Assembly (NCBI RefSeq): GCF_000013705.1
Contig: NC_007947.1
Span: 2,356,001 to 2,420,000 of the forward strand
Source: Methylobacillus flagellatus KT
GTDB taxonomy: Bacteria > Pseudomonadota > Gammaproteobacteria > Burkholderiales > Methylophilaceae
Direction of reading: 5' to 3'
DNA length: 64,000 nucleotides
Every line of letters begins with the position of its first letter. The stretch's first letter is position 1. The translations under genes and the position numbers were made by a program. The notes under the pieces were generated by a model, which was not told the origin of the DNA, did not search any database, and saw only the letters and a program-made list of their open reading frames with translations. Of this stretch, positions 2,217 through 51,262 are shown one piece after another.

Positions 2217-5013
2217 AATGACGCGACTCGCCCTGACCGAACAGGTTGCTGACACAACGGCCGCAAATGGTTGGGTGCGCGGCATCACTACCGACATCGG
2301 CACGGTAATGCCAGCAGCGCTCGCACTTGGCATGCGCACTCGCACTTACCTTCACTTCCAACCCACCCTCTCGCGCATGCACGGTGACGCGTGAGGCCAT
2401 CAGCACGAAGCGCAGGTCGTCCTGCAGCCGCACGAGTGCGGCATGGATATCGCCGCTGGCATAGATATCCAGCTCAGCTTGCAGGGAAGCGCCAATTTTG
2501 CCTTGCGCGCGTTCGTTCTCGATCGCCTTGTTGGAGGCGTTGCGCACATCCAGCACTGTCTCCCATGCCTGCAGTGCGGACTGATCCAGGCCGTGCTCCG
2601 GCAAGGCGTACCAGGTTTCCTCGAACACGGTGGCCTTGGCATCCAGGCCCAAGGTGTTCCAGATTTCATCTGCCGTGAAGCTGAGGATAGGCGCCATCAG
2701 CCGCATCAGGGCATGGGTGATATGGTGCAGTGCACTTTGTGCGGAACGGCGCGCATGCGACTTGTCGCCCGATGTGTAGAGTCTGTCCTTGAGGATATCG
2801 AGATAGAAGCCGCCCAGCTCCTCGGAGCAGAAACCCACCAGCTTTTGCACCGCGAGGTGGAATTCGTAGCGATCGAAGTCGGCAAGCACCTGCGCCTGCA
2901 ATTGCTGTGTCAATGCCAAGCCGAAGCGATCCAGCTCCAGCCACTGCTCGACCGGCAGCAAATCCTGCTGCGCATCGAAGTCGGCCAGGTTGGCGAGCAG
3001 GAAGCGTAGGGTATTACGGATGCGGCGGTAACTGTCGGTCACACGCTTGAGGATTTCCTCCGACAAGGACATTTCGCCGGAGTAGTCCGTGGAAGCGATC
3101 CACAGGCGCAGCATGTCCGCGCCGAGGCGGTTGCAGATATCCTGCGGCTCGATGCCGTTGCCGCGCGATTTCGACATCTTGTAGCCTTTCTCGTCCACGG
3201 TGAAGCCGTGGGTGAGCAAGGCATCGTACGGTGCACGACCATCGATCGCACAGCCGGTGAGCAAGGATGACTGGAACCAGCCCCGATGCTGATCCGAACC
3301 TTCCAGGTACAAGTCGGCAGGACTTTGCAGTTCCGAACGGCGTTTCAATACCGCCGCATGGGTAGCGCCGGAATCGAACCAGACATCCAGCGTATCCGTC
3401 ACCTTTTTGTATTGATCTGCATTCTCGGGCGCATGCTGAGCCAGGAAGGTTGCCCCATCGAGCGAGAACCAGGCTTCGATACCCTGCTGCTCCACCTGCA
3501 ACGCGACGGTTTCGAGCAGCTCCGCAGTGCGCGGATGCGGTTCGCCGGTCTCCTTGTGCACGAAGAACGGCATCGGCACACCCCAATTGCGCTGGCGCGA
3601 GACGCACCAGTCAGGACGGTTCCTGATCATCGCCTCGAGACGCGCTCGGCCCCAGGCAGGATAGAACGCCGTATCGTCCACCGCCTTGTTTGCCAGTTCG
3701 CGCAGGGATTTGCCATTGCTGCCGACCTGGTTCATGCCGATGAACCATTGGTGGGTCGCCAATTGCATCAATGGCGTCTTGTGGCGCCAGCAATGCGGGA
3801 AACTATGGTTCAGGCGCGCACTGGCGAACAAGGCGCCCTTTTCCTGCAATACAGTCAGGATGACTTTGTTGGCCTCTTGCCGGTTCAAGCCGCGAATTGC
3901 GGCCAGCTCGACCAGCTCGCTGTTGAAGAATTTGCCGTCGCCGCCGATCAACACGCGTGGCTTTTCCTCGGGATAATGCGCACGCATCACCAACCAGTCA
4001 TCGTTGCCGTGCGCGGCAGCGGTATGCACCAGGCCGGTACCGGCATCGGTCGTGACATGCTCGCCCGTGATCACGGGGACGGTGCGCTGCTCGAAAGGAT
4101 GCTGCACGAGCAGACCCCTAAGCGCCGCGCCCTTGGCAGAGCCAAGCACCGGCGCCTCTTCCTCGCCATAACGCTTGAGCGTCGCTTCGGCCAGGTCGTG
4201 CGCCAGCACCAGCAAGCCGCGCGAAGTCTGAAGCAGGTCATACTCCAGCTCAGGATGCACGCTGACGGCTTGGTTGGCAGGCAAGGTCCAGGGCGTAGTG
4301 GTCCAGATCACCGCGTAGGCATCACCATTGACGGTGGTATTGAACGCTGCGCCAAGCGCAGCGTGATCGACGAACTTGAAGCCAACGTCGATCGCGGGCG
4401 AGTTGACGTCCTCGTATTCGACTTCGGCCTCTGCCAATGCCGAGCCGCAGTCCACGCACCAATGCACGGGCTTGGAGCCCTGGTAGAGATAGCCATTCTT
4501 GTAGATGTCGCCAAGCGCGCGGATGATGTCGGCCTCGGTCTGGAAGTCCATGGTGAGGTAAGGATGATCCCAGTCGCCCAGCACGCCCAGGCGAATGAAG
4601 TCCTGCTTCTGCCTCGCCACCTGCTCGGCGGCATAGGCGCGGCACAGCTCACGGAATTTAGCCGGCGGAATATCCTTGCCGTGCTGTTTCTCGACAGCCA
4701 GCTCGATCGGCAGGCCATGGCAATCCCAGCCAGGCACGTAAGGCGCATCGAAGCCGGACAAGGTCTTGGACTTGACAATGATGTCCTTCAATATCTTGTT
4801 GACGGCATGCCCCAGGTGAATCGCGCCGTTGGCATACGGCGGGCCGTCGTGCAGGATGAATTTCTTCGCACCCTTGCGCGCATTGCGTATGCGCTGGTAC
4901 ACCTGTTTGTCCTGCCAGCCTTTCAGCCATGCGGGTTCACGCTTCGCCAGGTCTCCGCGCATCGGAAAACTGGTTTCTGGCAGGTTCAACTTGTACTTGG
5001 TGTTTTCGCTCAT
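2209..5013 (-). CDS. ileS: Isoleucyl-tRNA synthetase
   Basis: Charges tRNA-Ile in the cytoplasm. At 934 residues it is close to the E. coli enzyme. Class I signatures are present: the HIGH-like HLGH within [11 protein letters not shown] near residue 70, and KMSKSRGN around residue 605. The editing (CP1) domain lies between them. The C-terminus carries the zinc-binding CERCWHYR...CGRC cysteines. The ATG at 5013 is preferred to an upstream TTG at 5031, since [14 protein letters not shown] matches normal IleS N-termini. It follows ribF by 41 bases and overlaps lspA. Confidence 0.97.
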
Positions 5014-25377: not shown

Positions 25378-26610
25378 CTAACTGCGGTAGTCCGCGTTGA
25401 TGCGGACATAATCGTAGGAAAAATCGCAAGTCCAGACCGTGGCACTGGCCTGCCCACGGTTCAGCACGACACGCACGGTGATTTCGGCTTCCTGCATGAC
25501 GGCAGCACCTTGTTCCTCCACGTAGCTCGCCGCCCGTCCGCCATGCTCGGCTACCAGCACATCGCCCAGGTAAAGCTGCATGGCATTCACGTCAAGGTCG
25601 TCCACGCCAGCATAGCCAATCGCAGCGAGAATCCGTCCAAGGTTGGGATCGGAGGCGAAGAAGGCCGTCTTGACCAATGGCGAATGCGCAATCGCGTAAG
25701 CCACCTTGCGGCACTCATCCACATCTTTGCCGGACTCGATCTGGATCGTCATGAACTTGGTGGCGCCCTCGCCGTCCCGCACAATCGCCTGGGCCAGCTC
25801 GACCGCCACTTCTGTGATGGCATCCTGCAATTGCTGGAATGCCGCACTGGCAACCTCGACGATCTCGGCATTGCCGGCCTTGCCGGTTGCCATCACGATG
25901 AAGGAATCATTGGTCGAGGTGTCACCATCGACGGTGATGCAGTTGAAGGAGCGGTTCACGGCATGATCAACCAGTGCCTGCAGTGCGCCTTGGCTGATAG
26001 CAGCATCTGTCGCCACATAGCCCAGCATGGTCGCCATGTTCGGATGAATCATGCCTGATCCCTTGGAAATACCAGTCACCGTCACCACCTTGCCATCCAG
26101 GGTGATTTGCCGCGAAACGCCCTTGGGAACGATATCGGTCGTCATAATGGCTTCGGCTGCATCAAGCCAGTTCGAGTTACCGAGGTCAGCCACACATTGC
26201 GGCAAGCCAGCCAACAGGCGGTCCATGGGCAACGGCTCCAGAATGACACCCGTGGAAAAGGGCAACACTTGCTCGGGGCTGAGCTGCAGTAATCTCGCCA
26301 GCTCGCTGCAAGTCGCGTACGCTTTTTCCAACCCTGCCACCCCGGTGCCTGCATTGGCATTCCCGGTATTGACCACCAGCGCGCGAATATCGCCGTCCGT
26401 CTTGGATAAATGCGCTTTGCATACGGTCACGGGTGCTGCACAGAATCGATTTGTGGTGAAGACGCCAGCTACCCGTGTTCCTTCGGCAAGGCTGATGACC
26501 AGCATATCCTTGCGGTCAGGCTTGCGGATATTGGCTTTGGCAATACCAAGCGCTACACCTGGAACCGGCAACAAGGAGTGCGCTTCGGGCGCGACGAGAT
26601 TGACTGGCAT
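25378..26610 (-). CDS. argJ: Bifunctional ornithine acetyltransferase / N-acetylglutamate synthase
   Basis: Ornithine acetyltransferase of 410 residues that recycles the acetyl group from N-acetylornithine to glutamate. The autocleavage site is [14 protein letters not shown], with the Thr nucleophile (ATML). The C-terminus ends in the usual NADYRS. The ATG at 26610 has GGGAA 8 bases upstream and gives the normal N-terminus MPVNL; the longer frame to 26691 has no support. Note that the window also encodes an ArgA-type synthase (45966-47531), so acetylglutamate can be supplied in two ways. Confidence 0.96.
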
Positions 26611-45154: not shown

Positions 45155-45892
45155 ATGACAACTCCTCGCTTTTACCATCCCGGGGCACTGATTCCCGGCA
45201 ATGAAACCGCATTGGCTGGCAATGCAGCAAGCCATGCCAGCAAAGCCCTGCGTATGCAAGTAGGCGACCATGCCATCCTTTTCAATGGCGATGGACACAA
45301 TTACTTGAGCAGGCTGACCTCTATTCGCAAACAGGAGGTAATTGCCGAGGTATTGGAAGCGCAACCATGCCCGACAGAGTCTCCCTTGAAAATCACGCTG
45401 GCCCAGGCAATCTCCTCAGGCGACCGCATGGACTTCACGATTCAAAAAGCGGTGGAAATGGGCGTATCGTCCATCCAGCCCATCTTTAGTCAGCGCAGTA
45501 TCGTCAAGCTCACCGGCGAGCGCGCCGAGAAACGCCGGGAACATTGGCAGAATGTGGCTATTTCCGCCTGCGAGCAGTCAGGGCGCGCCTATATTCCTCC
45601 CGTGGCGCCCGCCATCAACCTGAGCGAGTGGCTGGCACAGAAACCAGGTGCAGATGCCTATATTACCCTGGCGCCCGGCGCACCTCTCACACTGCCGCAA
45701 CTTACTTCCCCAACACGCCATATCTGCTTGCTGATCGGCCCCGAAGGGGGCTTGGCCGACCATGAAATAGCACTGGCTGCTCAACACGGGTTCACTCTCG
45801 TACGCATGGGTCCGCGCATACTCAGAACGGAAACAGCCGCCATTGCCGCCATTGCCAGCATGCAAACGCTATGGGGTGATTTTATCAATTGA
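45155..45892 (+). CDS. rsmE: 16S rRNA m3U1498 methyltransferase
   Basis: SPOUT methyltransferase of 245 residues that methylates U1498 of 16S rRNA. An N-terminal PUA-like domain (HASKALRMQVGD) is followed by the knotted SAM domain with LLIGPEGGLADHEI (about residue 190) and the final GPRILRTETAAIAAI. Just upstream of the HTH-ArgA gene, but a 73-base gap with inverted repeats separates them. Confidence 0.96.
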   Translation: MTTPRFYHPGALIPGNETALAGNAASHASKALRMQVGDHAILFNGDGHNYLSRLTSIRKQEVIAEVLEAQPCPTESPLKITLAQAISSGDRMDFTIQKAVEMGVSSIQPIFSQRSIVKLTGERAEKRREHWQNVAISACEQSGRAYIPPVAPAINLSEWLAQKPGADAYITLAPGAPLTLPQLTSPTRHICLLIGPEGGLADHEIALAAQHGFTLVRMGPRILRTETAAIAAIASMQTLWGDFIN

Positions 45893-45915
45893 CTCCAATT
45901 AAATTGCATTAAAAG

Positions 45916-45957
45916 TCTATTTGCTATAGAAATATGTCTTAAACGCAAATTTAGGAC
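45916..45957. promoter_or_regulatory. Inverted repeats upstream of the HTH-ArgA gene
   Basis: Two imperfect palindromes lie in the 50 bases before the start: TCTAT-N5-ATAGA (45916-45930) and GTCTTAA-N8-TTAGGAC (45936-45957, one mismatch). In addition ATTTGC (45919-45924) is complementary to GCAAAT (45945-45950). They are candidate operators for the protein's own N-terminal DNA-binding domain or for another regulator. Confidence 0.4.
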
Positions 45958-45965
45958 AGATTTCC

Positions 45966-47531
45966 ATGGCTTTAGGAAACGCAATCCGCAAACGTCGCAA
46001 AGCGCTCAACATGACGTTGCAAGAACTGGCCCGCAAGGTCAACGCGAATAGCGGCAACCTATCCCGCATTGAACGCGGAGCGCAAGGCGTATCCGAAACC
46101 ATGTTGCGCAAGCTATGCACTGCACTGGATTGCACTGCAGCCTACCTATATGCCCAAAGTGATGCAGAAAGCGGGCATAGCACCAATACCTCACGCCTGA
46201 CCCTGCACCAACCTCAGGAGTTCGTCCGCTGGTTCCGCTCTGCTGCCCCTTATATCCACGCATTTGGGGGGCGGACCTTCGTGATTGCCTTTGGCGGCGA
46301 GGTCGTGGATGACGGCCAGTTCGTTGCCCTTTCGCACGACCTCAACCTGCTTGCCAGCCTGGATGTGCGTCTTGTGCTCGTGCATGGCGCACGCCCGCAA
46401 ATAGAACGCCGCCTCAGGCGTGCCAAGCTGCAGACCAAACTGGTCAATGGCTTGCGTGTCACGGATGACGAAGCCATGGAAGCCGTCAAGGAAGCGAACG
46501 GCGCCGTTCGCGTTGAAATAGAATCCTTGCTTTCTATGGGGCTGATCAACTCGCCGATGGCAGGCGCAGACATTCGCGTTGCCAGCGGCAACTTCGTCAC
46601 CGCCAAGCCGCTCGGCGTGCGCGACGGTATAGACCTGCAGCATACCGGCGAAGTACGCAAAATCGATGCTATTGGTATCCAAAAGCGCCTGGACGACGGT
46701 GAGCTGGTATTGCTATCGCCCCTGGGCTACTCGCCTACCGGGGAAGTATTCAACCTGACGCTGGAAGATGTTGCCACCAGCACGGCCATTGCCCTGGACG
46801 CTGACAAGCTGATTTTCCTCATGGACTCCAGCGGCGTGCACAATATTCGCGGGGAGCTGCTGCGGGAAATGACCACCGACAAGGCCAGAAACCTTCTGCG
46901 CCATATCGGTAACAACGGTGCCCAACAGATTACCGAAGATGAATTGTATTACCTGCCTGCCGCAGTCCGCGCCTGCGGACAAGGCGTAGCACGCACTCAC
47001 CTGATCAGTCGGCATGTGGACGGCGCGATTTTGCAGGAGCTCTTCACACACGACGGCATCGGCACCATGGTGACCGAGGATCCGCTGGAAGCCATGCGGC
47101 CTGCGGATATTGGTGATGTCGGCGGCATACTGCAATTGATCGAGCCCTTGGAAAACGAGGGAATACTGGTCAGGCGCGGGCGCGAACGCCTGGAAATGGA
47201 AATCAACCACTTTTATGTCATGGAGCATGACGGCAAGATCATTGGCTGCGCAGCGCTCTACCCCTTTGCTGATGCCAAGACCGCGGAGCTCGCCTGCATG
47301 GCCATCCACTCCTCATTCCGCCGTGGCGGACGCGGCGACCGACTGCTCAGCTATTGCGAAGGACAAGCGCGCGAGCTGGGCTTGAAATCCATCTTTGTCC
47401 TCACGACGCGCACAGAGCATTGGTTCCTCGAACGAGGCTTTATTGAAACCAGCGTCGAGCAACTGCCGGGTGAAAAGCAGAAACTCTACAACCTGCAGCG
47501 CCGCTCCAAGGTTTTCATCAAGCATATTTGA
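45966..47531 (+). CDS. argA: N-acetylglutamate synthase with an N-terminal XRE-type HTH domain
   Basis: Single open frame of 521 residues. Residues 4-62 form a Cro/CI-type helix-turn-helix (KALNMTLQELARKV, then SGNLSRIERG). A short linker (63-80) leads into a complete ArgA of about 441 residues. The acetylglutamate-kinase-like domain contains FVIAFGGEVV near residue 105, and the C-terminal GNAT domain contains RRGGRGDRLL near 450. ArgA makes N-acetylglutamate, the first step of arginine synthesis, in the cytoplasm. Relatives normally start at the QEFVRWFRSAAPY segment; no internal start with a ribosome binding site is seen there, so the fusion looks real. Regulation by arginine through the kinase-like domain is known for the family; coupling to DNA binding is inference. 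Confidence 0.88.
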   Translation: MALGNAIRKRRKALNMTLQELARKVNANSGNLSRIERGAQGVSETMLRKLCTALDCTAAYLYAQSDAESGHSTNTSRLTLHQPQEFVRWFRSAAPYIHAFGGRTFVIAFGGEVVDDGQFVALSHDLNLLASLDVRLVLVHGARPQIERRLRRAKLQTKLVNGLRVTDDEAMEAVKEANGAVRVEIESLLSMGLINSPMAGADIRVASGNFVTAKPLGVRDGIDLQHTGEVRKIDAIGIQKRLDDGELVLLSPLGYSPTGEVFNLTLEDVATSTAIALDADKLIFLMDSSGVHNIRGELLREMTTDKARNLLRHIGNNGAQQITEDELYYLPAAVRACGQGVARTHLISRHVDGAILQELFTHDGIGTMVTEDPLEAMRPADIGDVGGILQLIEPLENEGILVRRGRERLEMEINHFYVMEHDGKIIGCAALYPFADAKTAELACMAIHSSFRRGGRGDRLLSYCEGQARELGLKSIFVLTTRTEHWFLERGFIETSVEQLPGEKQKLYNLQRRSKVFIKHI

Positions 47532-47696: not shown

Positions 47697-48443
47697 ATGC
47701 ATTTCACATACACTAAAAGCATTCTTGCACTGAGCCTGCTTGCAGCCACATCCATCGCTCAGGCAGCCACCGAAACCAGCGAATACTTCACTGACGTTGC
47801 AGGCTCAGCGTCTACAGACGGCTTCAACCAATTGATTGCCAGTCGTCTCGGTAGTGGCGCAACCGGCATAGCCGCAGTCACCACAGGCGTTGTCAGCAAC
47901 GCTCCTGCTGGCGATGCCGTCCTGACCCGCACATCTGGCACAGCTTATCCTGCAGGCTTCGGCCTCTATGAGTGGCAAGGCCCATACTCAACTTTCACCA
48001 TTAGCGATGAAACACTGATCTCTGATCTTGGCTCCATCGTATTCCAGAGCCATGTCAACCCTGGCGGCAATTATGAGCTTGGCGGCGCTGGCGGCATTGA
48101 TGCTGCGATTTCAGAAGTATTCCTGAGCTTCAACGGCGGCAACCAACTTCTTGCGGCAACTTCGTTCAGCCTCACAAATGCCATTGACAACCCTGGCTCG
48201 CCTTTCTACAACCCTGACAGTCCAATCCTTGAGGCAGCAATCGGCTACTTTACGTGGGATTTGAGCGGGATCAGCGACCCAATCACTTCCTACTCAATTT
48301 CTTTCGGTACCCATGCCCACAGCAGCATCATCGCCTTCCAGGTTGACCAGATCGCTGCCGCTGTACCCGAGCCTTCCGCTTATGCACTGATGCTCGGCGG
48401 CCTGGCGCTGGTGGGCTTTGCGGCTCGTCGCAAAAAGGCTTAA
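47697..48443 (+). CDS. PEP-CTERM sorting-signal protein (exosortase substrate)
   Basis: Exported protein of 248 residues. A Sec signal peptide ends around AQA (residue 23). The mature part is rich in Gly, Ser, Thr and Asn with a beta-type pattern. The C-terminus carries the PEP-CTERM tripartite signal: VPEPSAYALMLGGL, a hydrophobic stretch, then RRKKA. Such proteins are processed by exosortase (EpsH) and often associate with exopolysaccharide or biofilm. No exosortase gene is in the window. The ligand or role of the mature domain is unknown. Confidence 0.9.
   Translation: MHFTYTKSILALSLLAATSIAQAATETSEYFTDVAGSASTDGFNQLIASRLGSGATGIAAVTTGVVSNAPAGDAVLTRTSGTAYPAGFGLYEWQGPYSTFTISDETLISDLGSIVFQSHVNPGGNYELGGAGGIDAAISEVFLSFNGGNQLLAATSFSLTNAIDNPGSPFYNPDSPILEAAIGYFTWDLSGISDPITSYSISFGTHAHSSIIAFQVDQIAAAVPEPSAYALMLGGLALVGFAARRKKA

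Positions 48444-50368: not shown

Positions 50369-51262
<894 letters not shown>

Follow-up and report, generated by a model that had tools for sequence, protein, structure and literature searches.

An XRE-type helix-turn-helix fused to N-acetylglutamate synthase in Methylophilaceae, and the operator-like palindromes in front of its gene

Results

Architecture of the fused gene

The window, by which we mean the whole stretch of 64,000 nucleotides of Methylobacillus flagellatus KT DNA that was analysed, contains at positions 45966-47531 of the forward strand a single open frame that starts with ATG and encodes 521 residues followed by a stop codon. Residues 7-61 (45984-46148, +) form an XRE-type helix-turn-helix (HTH), as determined by the Pfam model HTH_3 (E value 1.5e-9, 38.2 bits against a cut-off of 23); HTH_31 (35.5 bits, cut-off 27) and HTH_26 (31.8 bits, cut-off 22) also score above their thresholds, and HTH_19 stays under its own (23.5 against 30.2 bits). 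A linker (residues 63-85, 46152-46220, +), variable in length and sequence across the fused relatives, leads to an amino-acid kinase-like (AAK) domain (Pfam AA_kinase, residues 104-348, 46275-47009, +) and to an acetyltransferase (GNAT/NAT) domain (residues 375-520, 47088-47525, +) that is identified by Pfam (Acetyltransf_1 at residues 409-483), NCBIfam and structure match. The NCBIfam equivalog models for ArgA score 687.9 bits over residues 82-520 (NF003641, cut-off 344) and 583.4 bits over residues 86-520 (TIGR01890, cut-off 202.85), and the closest solved structure, the N-acetylglutamate synthase of N. gonorrhoeae (ngNAGS, 2r8v), aligns over residues 80-517. A preliminary description made from the sequence alone had read one continuous HTH-ArgA frame with domain limits at residues 4-62 and about 81-521; the Pfam and NCBIfam models bear out the frame, and the limits prove accurate when set against the Pfam (7-61) and NCBIfam (82-520) boundaries. 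A ribosome-binding-like AGGA (45953-45956, +) can be read nine bases 5' of the ATG. Directly 3' of argA, past an AT-rich gap, lies a gene for a PEP-CTERM protein (47697-48443, +).

Read by eye, the window argA contains no in-frame ATG, GTG or TTG between codon 47 (TTG) and codon 106 (GTG), as had been claimed for this copy, and a listing of start codons places none of the three at codons 60-88. A stand-alone ArgA expressed from the window gene therefore appears unlikely. This argument holds for the window copy only; among the 81 fused relatives, 57 have some start-type codon at positions 60-88, and in 20 of these a ribosome-binding-like motif is close by.

Conservation of the HTH and synthase domains

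For comparison, 98 loci with a match starting at or before residue 16 and ending at residue 500 or later were reduced to 83 distinct proteins and, after removal of L139 (a plain ArgA of another family) and L161 (an argB-centred locus), to the 81 of the fused set. Truncated copies (for example L057, L072 and L156), L071 with a frame change and L136 with an N run were kept outside it. The plain set comprises 46 ArgA loci with a match start at residues 40-99, an end at residue 500 or later and an identity above 44%, again without L136; L138 and L141 fell outside.

Mean pairwise identity in the 81 fused proteins is 57.1% in the HTH (residues 4-62), 15.6% in the linker, 70.7% in the AAK domain and 62.1% in the NAT domain, and rises to 77.5% in HTH residues 28-41. 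Within this stretch lie residues 28-38 (46047-46079, +), which we take to be the putative recognition helix region on the basis of the general fold of such domains; L32, S33 and E36 are invariant in 81/81 proteins, N31 and I35 occur in 80/81. The linker between the HTH and the N-terminal helix (N-helix) of the synthase, by comparison, is 7-51 residues long and barely conserved. In 94 non-independent pairs with a mean ArgA dS of 0.91, mean dN amounts to 0.127 for the HTH, 0.374 for the linker, 0.070 for the AAK and 0.113 for the NAT domain. These values indicate purifying selection on the HTH, with a constraint comparable to that on the catalytic domain. That the HTH is vestigial, or a structural appendage devoid of DNA binding, we consider highly improbable, given its invariant residues, its low dN and its retention in 14 genomes of 1.2-1.4 Mb.

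In the synthase part, the decapeptide ELFTHDGIGT (residues 358-367, 47037-47066, +) agrees with the motif described for the loop of the arginine site, E-(L/I)-(F/M)-(T/S)-X-X-G-X-G-T (PMC4490483). With ngNAGS positions mapped through the 2r8v alignment and residue roles taken from PMC4490483, the arginine-site and loop residues K281, E358, T361, G364, G366 and T367, which include the equivalents of ngNAGS K201 and E270, are invariant in 81/81 fused proteins, as are R404 and E441, the equivalents of ngNAGS R316 and of the general base E353. C444 (the ngNAGS C356 position) is found in 78/81 and S514 (S427) in 80/81. The S392 position is Thr in 81/81 fused and 46/46 plain proteins, and the R425 position is variable, with Arg in 32/81 fused and 17/46 plain sequences. 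Judged by the equivalog models and the arginine-site residues, the protein would thus rank as a classical ArgA.

Distribution and origin of the fusion

The best 120 of 8000 scored homologues all match an HTH Pfam model together with the AA_kinase and GNAT models; the source name of one reads 'transcriptional regulator, XRE family /N-acetylglutamate kinase /N-acetylglutamate synthase'. Within Methylophilaceae a match was obtained in 180/187 genomes, including 119/119 good ones, and the seven genomes without a match are all less than 90% complete; the weak matches in G006, G121 and G184 may not be ArgA. The family matches listed start at residues 1-3 with four exceptions, namely G181 and G047, which both have the HTH, the linker being interrupted by an N run in the former and longer in the latter, G153 (argA split over two contigs) and G055, whose match begins at residue 173; the likely counterpart of G055, L071, carries the HTH and changes frame near residue 172. 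In the small-genome genus g2, which we term OM43-like solely on account of its genome size, the HTH sits on a full-length protein in 14/16 genomes searched (L142-L155); of the remaining two, G013 yields a C-terminal fragment only, and in G015 the HTH is carried by a fragment.

Outside the family, ArgA matches were found in 388/399 genomes of an order sample and in 311/370 of a class sample, and the matches listed, about the best 150 places of each, mostly start near residues 70-88. Reading the N-termini of the longer non-family matches G254, G360, G235 and G415 revealed no HTH. A further longer match, G328, begins at residue 54 and contains an internal stop, and among the class-sample matches listed none but that of the M. 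flagellatus genome itself (G000) starts before residue 33. The earlier view that the fusion is unusual among ArgA proteins is in line with this, as no HTH was found outside Methylophilaceae among the order- and class-sample matches listed. A contig scan at the species level likewise assigned all fused loci to Methylophilaceae or to MAGs, the nearest plain ArgA being L075 (65% identity, from residue 85). In a tree of the ArgA part, built with FastTree only, one branch with support 100 separates the 81 fused from the 46 plain proteins; a single origin of the fusion is the simplest reading of this topology.

A separate HTH gene, which would have spoken against the fusion, was looked for in relatives and not found. 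In a search that requires shared 5-residue words, the HTH alone (69 residues) matches only four proteins of 63-110 residues, of which three come from contigs 515-1311 bases long and the fourth, from a contig of 4177 bases, bears the source name amino-acid N-acetyltransferase. Around plain argA, the 46 loci gave two insignificant HTH matches (E 0.11 and 0.66).

Because the same architecture occurs in the 120 best homologues and in independent genomes, we regard 45966-47531 as a confirmed XRE-HTH/ArgA fusion at the level of sequence, neither a chance frame nor a sequencing slip. An assembly artefact that joined two genes could appeal to two interrupted assemblies, L136 with its N run in the linker and L071 with its frame change outside the HTH; most relatives that were read have an uninterrupted frame, and its recurrence family-wide in independent genomes, along with the scarcity of HTH-only proteins, refutes this explanation. 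L071 is a draft contig of Methylobacillus glycogenes JCM 2850 in which argA changes frame near base 3016, so that residues 1-172 and 173-519 lie in separate pieces.

Palindromes in the argA control region

The control regions of fused argA genes contain palindromes of about 19 bp that resemble ATTTGYA-n5-TRCAAAT; in many cases there are two of them, set over promoter-like sequence at a centre-to-centre distance of 30 bp. In the window, the upstream operator-like palindrome 1, AATTGCATTAAAAGTCTAT (45902-45920), has a degenerate right half and scores 14.2 bits, rank 3 of the 64-kb window and on its own within chance; palindrome 2, ATATGTCTTAAACGCAAAT (45932-45950), scores 20.0 bits and ranks first, the best of 20 random sequences reaching 17.6. 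A consensus scan of 45850-46000 found no sigma-70 consensus promoter. The comparison of promoter layouts points tentatively to a -35-like TTGCAT inside palindrome 1 (45904-45909, +) and, 15 bases past it and between the palindromes, to a -10-like TATAGA (45925-45930, +) that agrees in 4 of 6 positions.

The palindrome was first spotted by eye in upstream regions, and a palindromic 19-bp matrix seeded in this way was trained on the fused set, in which it marks 150 sites over the 81 regions. A best score of 12 bits or more is reached in 78/81 fused versus 0/46 plain control regions, a comparison that is not independent of the training. Mean best scores are 17.0 bits for fused regions versus 2.4 in shuffles, and -7.8 bits for plain regions versus -7.1; by appearance, plain argA genes are richer in G+C on average. 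Checks came from held-out groups and from an unseeded count of dyads. When held out, 14/14 regions of the small-genome genus g2 scored at least 14.1 bits, 2/2 regions of g15 scored 19.7 bits, and the eight regions nearest the window averaged 13.3 bits versus -1.5 in shuffles, the weakest near relative, L004, scoring 6.8 bits, a value equalled by 4/100 shuffles. Among 16128 dyads counted without a seed, TGTA-N5-TACA and its degenerate form tie for first place with 37/81 regions against 0.0 expected from 10 shuffles, and TACA-N17-TGTA, a trace of the tandem layout, occurs 20 times against 0.4 expected.

The sites are concentrated in front of argA. In 79/80 fused loci (one with fewer than 110 bases upstream was left aside) the argA site is the top-scoring place of the whole locus; sites of at least 14 bits number 120 in the argA control regions (about 9 kb in all) versus 10 in 403 kb elsewhere, all 10 of them within argA itself. 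In 50/81 regions a distance of 29-32 bp separates the two best sites, exactly 30 bp in 37, versus a mean of 1.6 and a maximum of 4 in 20 controls; 31/81 regions lack such a pair of best sites. When this spacing is accepted at any score, 59 regions qualify, and in these a -10-like hexamer comes after the TTGYAT-like letters of the first site, at a distance of 17 bases in 40/59. In the paired regions palindrome 1 lies over the -35-like element and palindrome 2 over the -10/start region.

In the g2 genomes L144, L146-L149 and L151 the best palindrome spans the argA start codon, and the first codons (ATGCAAAA) form one half of it. Strong palindromes also occur within argA, in linker codons of L018 and L024 at +197 and L046 at +227, and in HTH codons of L110 and L111 at +22; these are perhaps auxiliary operators. 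The intragenic places in these five loci and the operator-like places at other genes described below would leave scope for the HTH as an activator, or for distant genes as its main task; since the palindromes of the 59 paired regions cover the -35-like and -10/start regions, the usual layout for repression, we hold this alternative to be quite unlikely.

Other genes and ArgR

The palindromes go with fused argA, and neither with plain argA nor with the argC, argF and argJ starts tested. These three genes are present in 25/25 genomes searched, and from -300 to +60 of their starts (argC 26, argJ 25, argF 25) all best scores fall below 12 bits; their 77 loci, together 310 kb, contain one site of at least 14 bits. 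Two further arginine genes share the window with argA, argJ at 25381-26553 (-) and argB at 50378-51262 (+); no palindrome is found at their starts (-0.2 and -1.1 bits, respectively). An arginine regulon spanning the pathway is thereby ruled out for the argB, argC, argF and argJ starts examined.

Across the 2.97 Mb of the M. flagellatus genome the window-site pattern, with up to two mismatches, occurs at 3 forward and 3 reverse places versus 8 and 1 for the reversed control, and is thus not in excess. Its only zero-mismatch place is argA, as expected by construction; a place with one mismatch lies inside metW. In 12 genomes, the matches listed do not clearly outnumber the reversed control in every genome (5 versus 8 in G064), and the best site of 14 pattern-selected stretches falls within one of the longest frames in 10/14.

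Operator-like palindromes were seen at the start of a gene that we take to be metW-like, behind a presumably metX-like gene: two 30 bp apart in L245 (G064, 1419-1467), two 42 bp apart in L248 (G109, 1914-1974) and one in L167 of the M. flagellatus genome (about 1500-1518). One of these palindromes is encoded by the peptide DFA(L/I)I(A/T)N, and the loci, having been found by the pattern, are a biased choice; the metW-start palindromes are likely coding chance. Elsewhere in the same genome (L244, record 2508400-2511400), GATTGCGAAATATGCAAAA at 1497-1515 scores 14.0 bits and lies 15 bases 5' of the start of a presumably YebC-like gene. The identical 19 bases GATTGTATTTTTTGCAAAA (15.0 bits) were found in two genera near his and tat-like genes, in L252 (G103, 1479) and L254 (G064, 1507), outside the four longest frames shown.

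ArgR was considered as owner of the palindromes and rejected. The ArgR domain (PF01316) is absent from the Pfam matches of the fused protein, and a PF01316 search found no ArgR over the cut-off in the M. flagellatus genome (0/1), in the family (0/187, with two weak matches below it) or in the order (0/150, two weak matches); the same search was positive in 9/14 known control genomes. Since ArgR is missing in the order sample as well, its absence is no special pointer to the fused protein. Another, unlinked regulator might own the palindromes while the HTH of ArgA binds elsewhere; operator-like places exist at other loci too, at the metW start and 5' of the YebC-like gene. As the palindromes accompany the HTH (78/81 fused versus 0/46 plain regions) and the obvious candidate, ArgR, was not found, we deem such an owner unlikely.

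Discussion

We propose a probable 'trigger enzyme': the fused protein would be a functional N-acetylglutamate synthase and, in addition, the repressor of argA. The suggestion in the preliminary description that the enzyme doubles as a transcription factor gains support from the palindromes conserved 5' of its own gene, and the architecture, HTH plus AAK plus GNAT, recurs in independent genomes across Methylophilaceae. The HTH would bind these palindromes, the effect would be repression, and one oligomer would bridge both sites. Paired HTH domains of the enzyme, probably a hexamer, may thus occupy a typical operator of two palindromes whose centres are 30 bp, or about three DNA turns, apart; with palindrome 1 over the -35-like element and palindrome 2 at or just past the -10-like element, the bound protein would exclude RNA polymerase.

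The structure of ngNAGS suggests how the HTH domains could be paired. Its six subunits are joined through their AAK domains, with interlaced N-terminal helices between neighbours; the arginine site is close to the end of the N-helix, and its occupation shifts this helix and widens the ring by ~10 A (PMC4490483). Placed just ahead of the N-helix, the HTH could be presented as dimers by the interlaced subunit pairs, of which a hexamer has three, enough for two palindromes. We further suggest, tentatively and with somewhat less than even confidence, that arginine at a single site both switches off the acetyltransferase and, through displacement of the paired HTH-bearing N-helices, locks the same hexamer onto the two palindromes 30 bp apart. 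That arginine at the feedback site strengthens DNA binding is about evenly balanced and is the least certain part of the model. The linker, at 7-51 barely conserved residues, makes a stiff arginine lever unlikely; arginine would instead act through dimer geometry or the state of the oligomer.

A serious rival, though less likely than not, shares the autorepressor core but dispenses with arginine in gene control: the HTH would repress argA according to the amount of enzyme, and arginine would act on catalysis only. Such an arginine-independent homeostat is favoured by the same linker, which at 15.6% mean identity separates the HTH from the arginine-responsive helix, and by argC, argF and argJ, whose lack of an operator implies that the pathway as a whole is not addressed. 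Yet the HTH directly precedes the helix that moves on arginine binding in ngNAGS (PMC4490483), and end-product control is the expected use of such an arrangement. With ArgJ found in 25/25 genomes, recycling of acetyl groups is probable, and the main role of ArgA may be to replenish the cycle.

If arginine does couple to DNA binding, Methylophilaceae, in which no ArgR was found, would possess a counterpart of ArgR built from an enzyme. The fusion suggests a way in which arginine synthesis may be controlled in bacteria without detectable ArgR, and its apparently single promoter offers a system for studying the coupling of ligand and DNA binding in an allosteric oligomer. Attempts to overproduce arginine in these methylotrophs would need to take the HTH into account besides the feedback site. 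Searches of the open-licence PubMed Central literature found no report of an HTH-ArgA fusion; 'DNA' and 'helix-turn' are absent from the text of a NAGS review, and a passage search of a regulon survey (PMC5343134) found neither 'Methylophil-' nor 'Methylobac-'. Fusions of enzyme and repressor are already known from PutA and NadR, and BzdR is known as an enzyme-derived regulator; the palindromes of the fused argA genes appear to be new.

Like ngNAGS, the fused protein contains AAK and NAT over the full length and the equivalents of K201, E270, E353 and R316 in 81/81 sequences; unlike it, an N-terminal XRE HTH, a linker and an operator-like control region are added, and S392 is replaced by Thr and R425 is variable, as in plain relatives. 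Trigger enzymes in which the enzyme carries a fused DNA-binding domain include NadR and PutA; both represent other enzymes and pathways. In NadR, the pathway of the enzyme is controlled by a repressor domain fused to it. The same is described for PutA (PMC5293562); the PutA domain is a ribbon-helix-helix. BzdR, a dedicated regulator of benzoate genes, combines an XRE HTH, a linker and a shikimate-kinase-like domain (PMC3602430), and so resembles the fused protein in joining an XRE HTH through a linker to an enzyme-derived effector domain. Fused ArgA differs in keeping its synthase residues, and the BzdR family model NF006015 scores only 28.1 bits (cut-off 204) over residues 2-87, the HTH part.

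In Escherichia coli, hexameric ArgR occupies a pair of 18-bp boxes overlapping the -35 element (PMC6245113). If our reading is right, fused ArgA would work alike, as a hexamer on two palindromes of 18-19 bp over a promoter, a likeness of working and not of membership, for the proteins are unrelated and the fused HTH is of the XRE type without PF01316. The sites differ as well: the fused-argA half-site is TGYA and not an ArgR box, and its centres are usually 30 bp apart, whereas the 18-bp ArgR boxes are separated by 3 bp. Finally, in contrast to ArgR, the fused protein seems to address argA alone among the arg genes tested.
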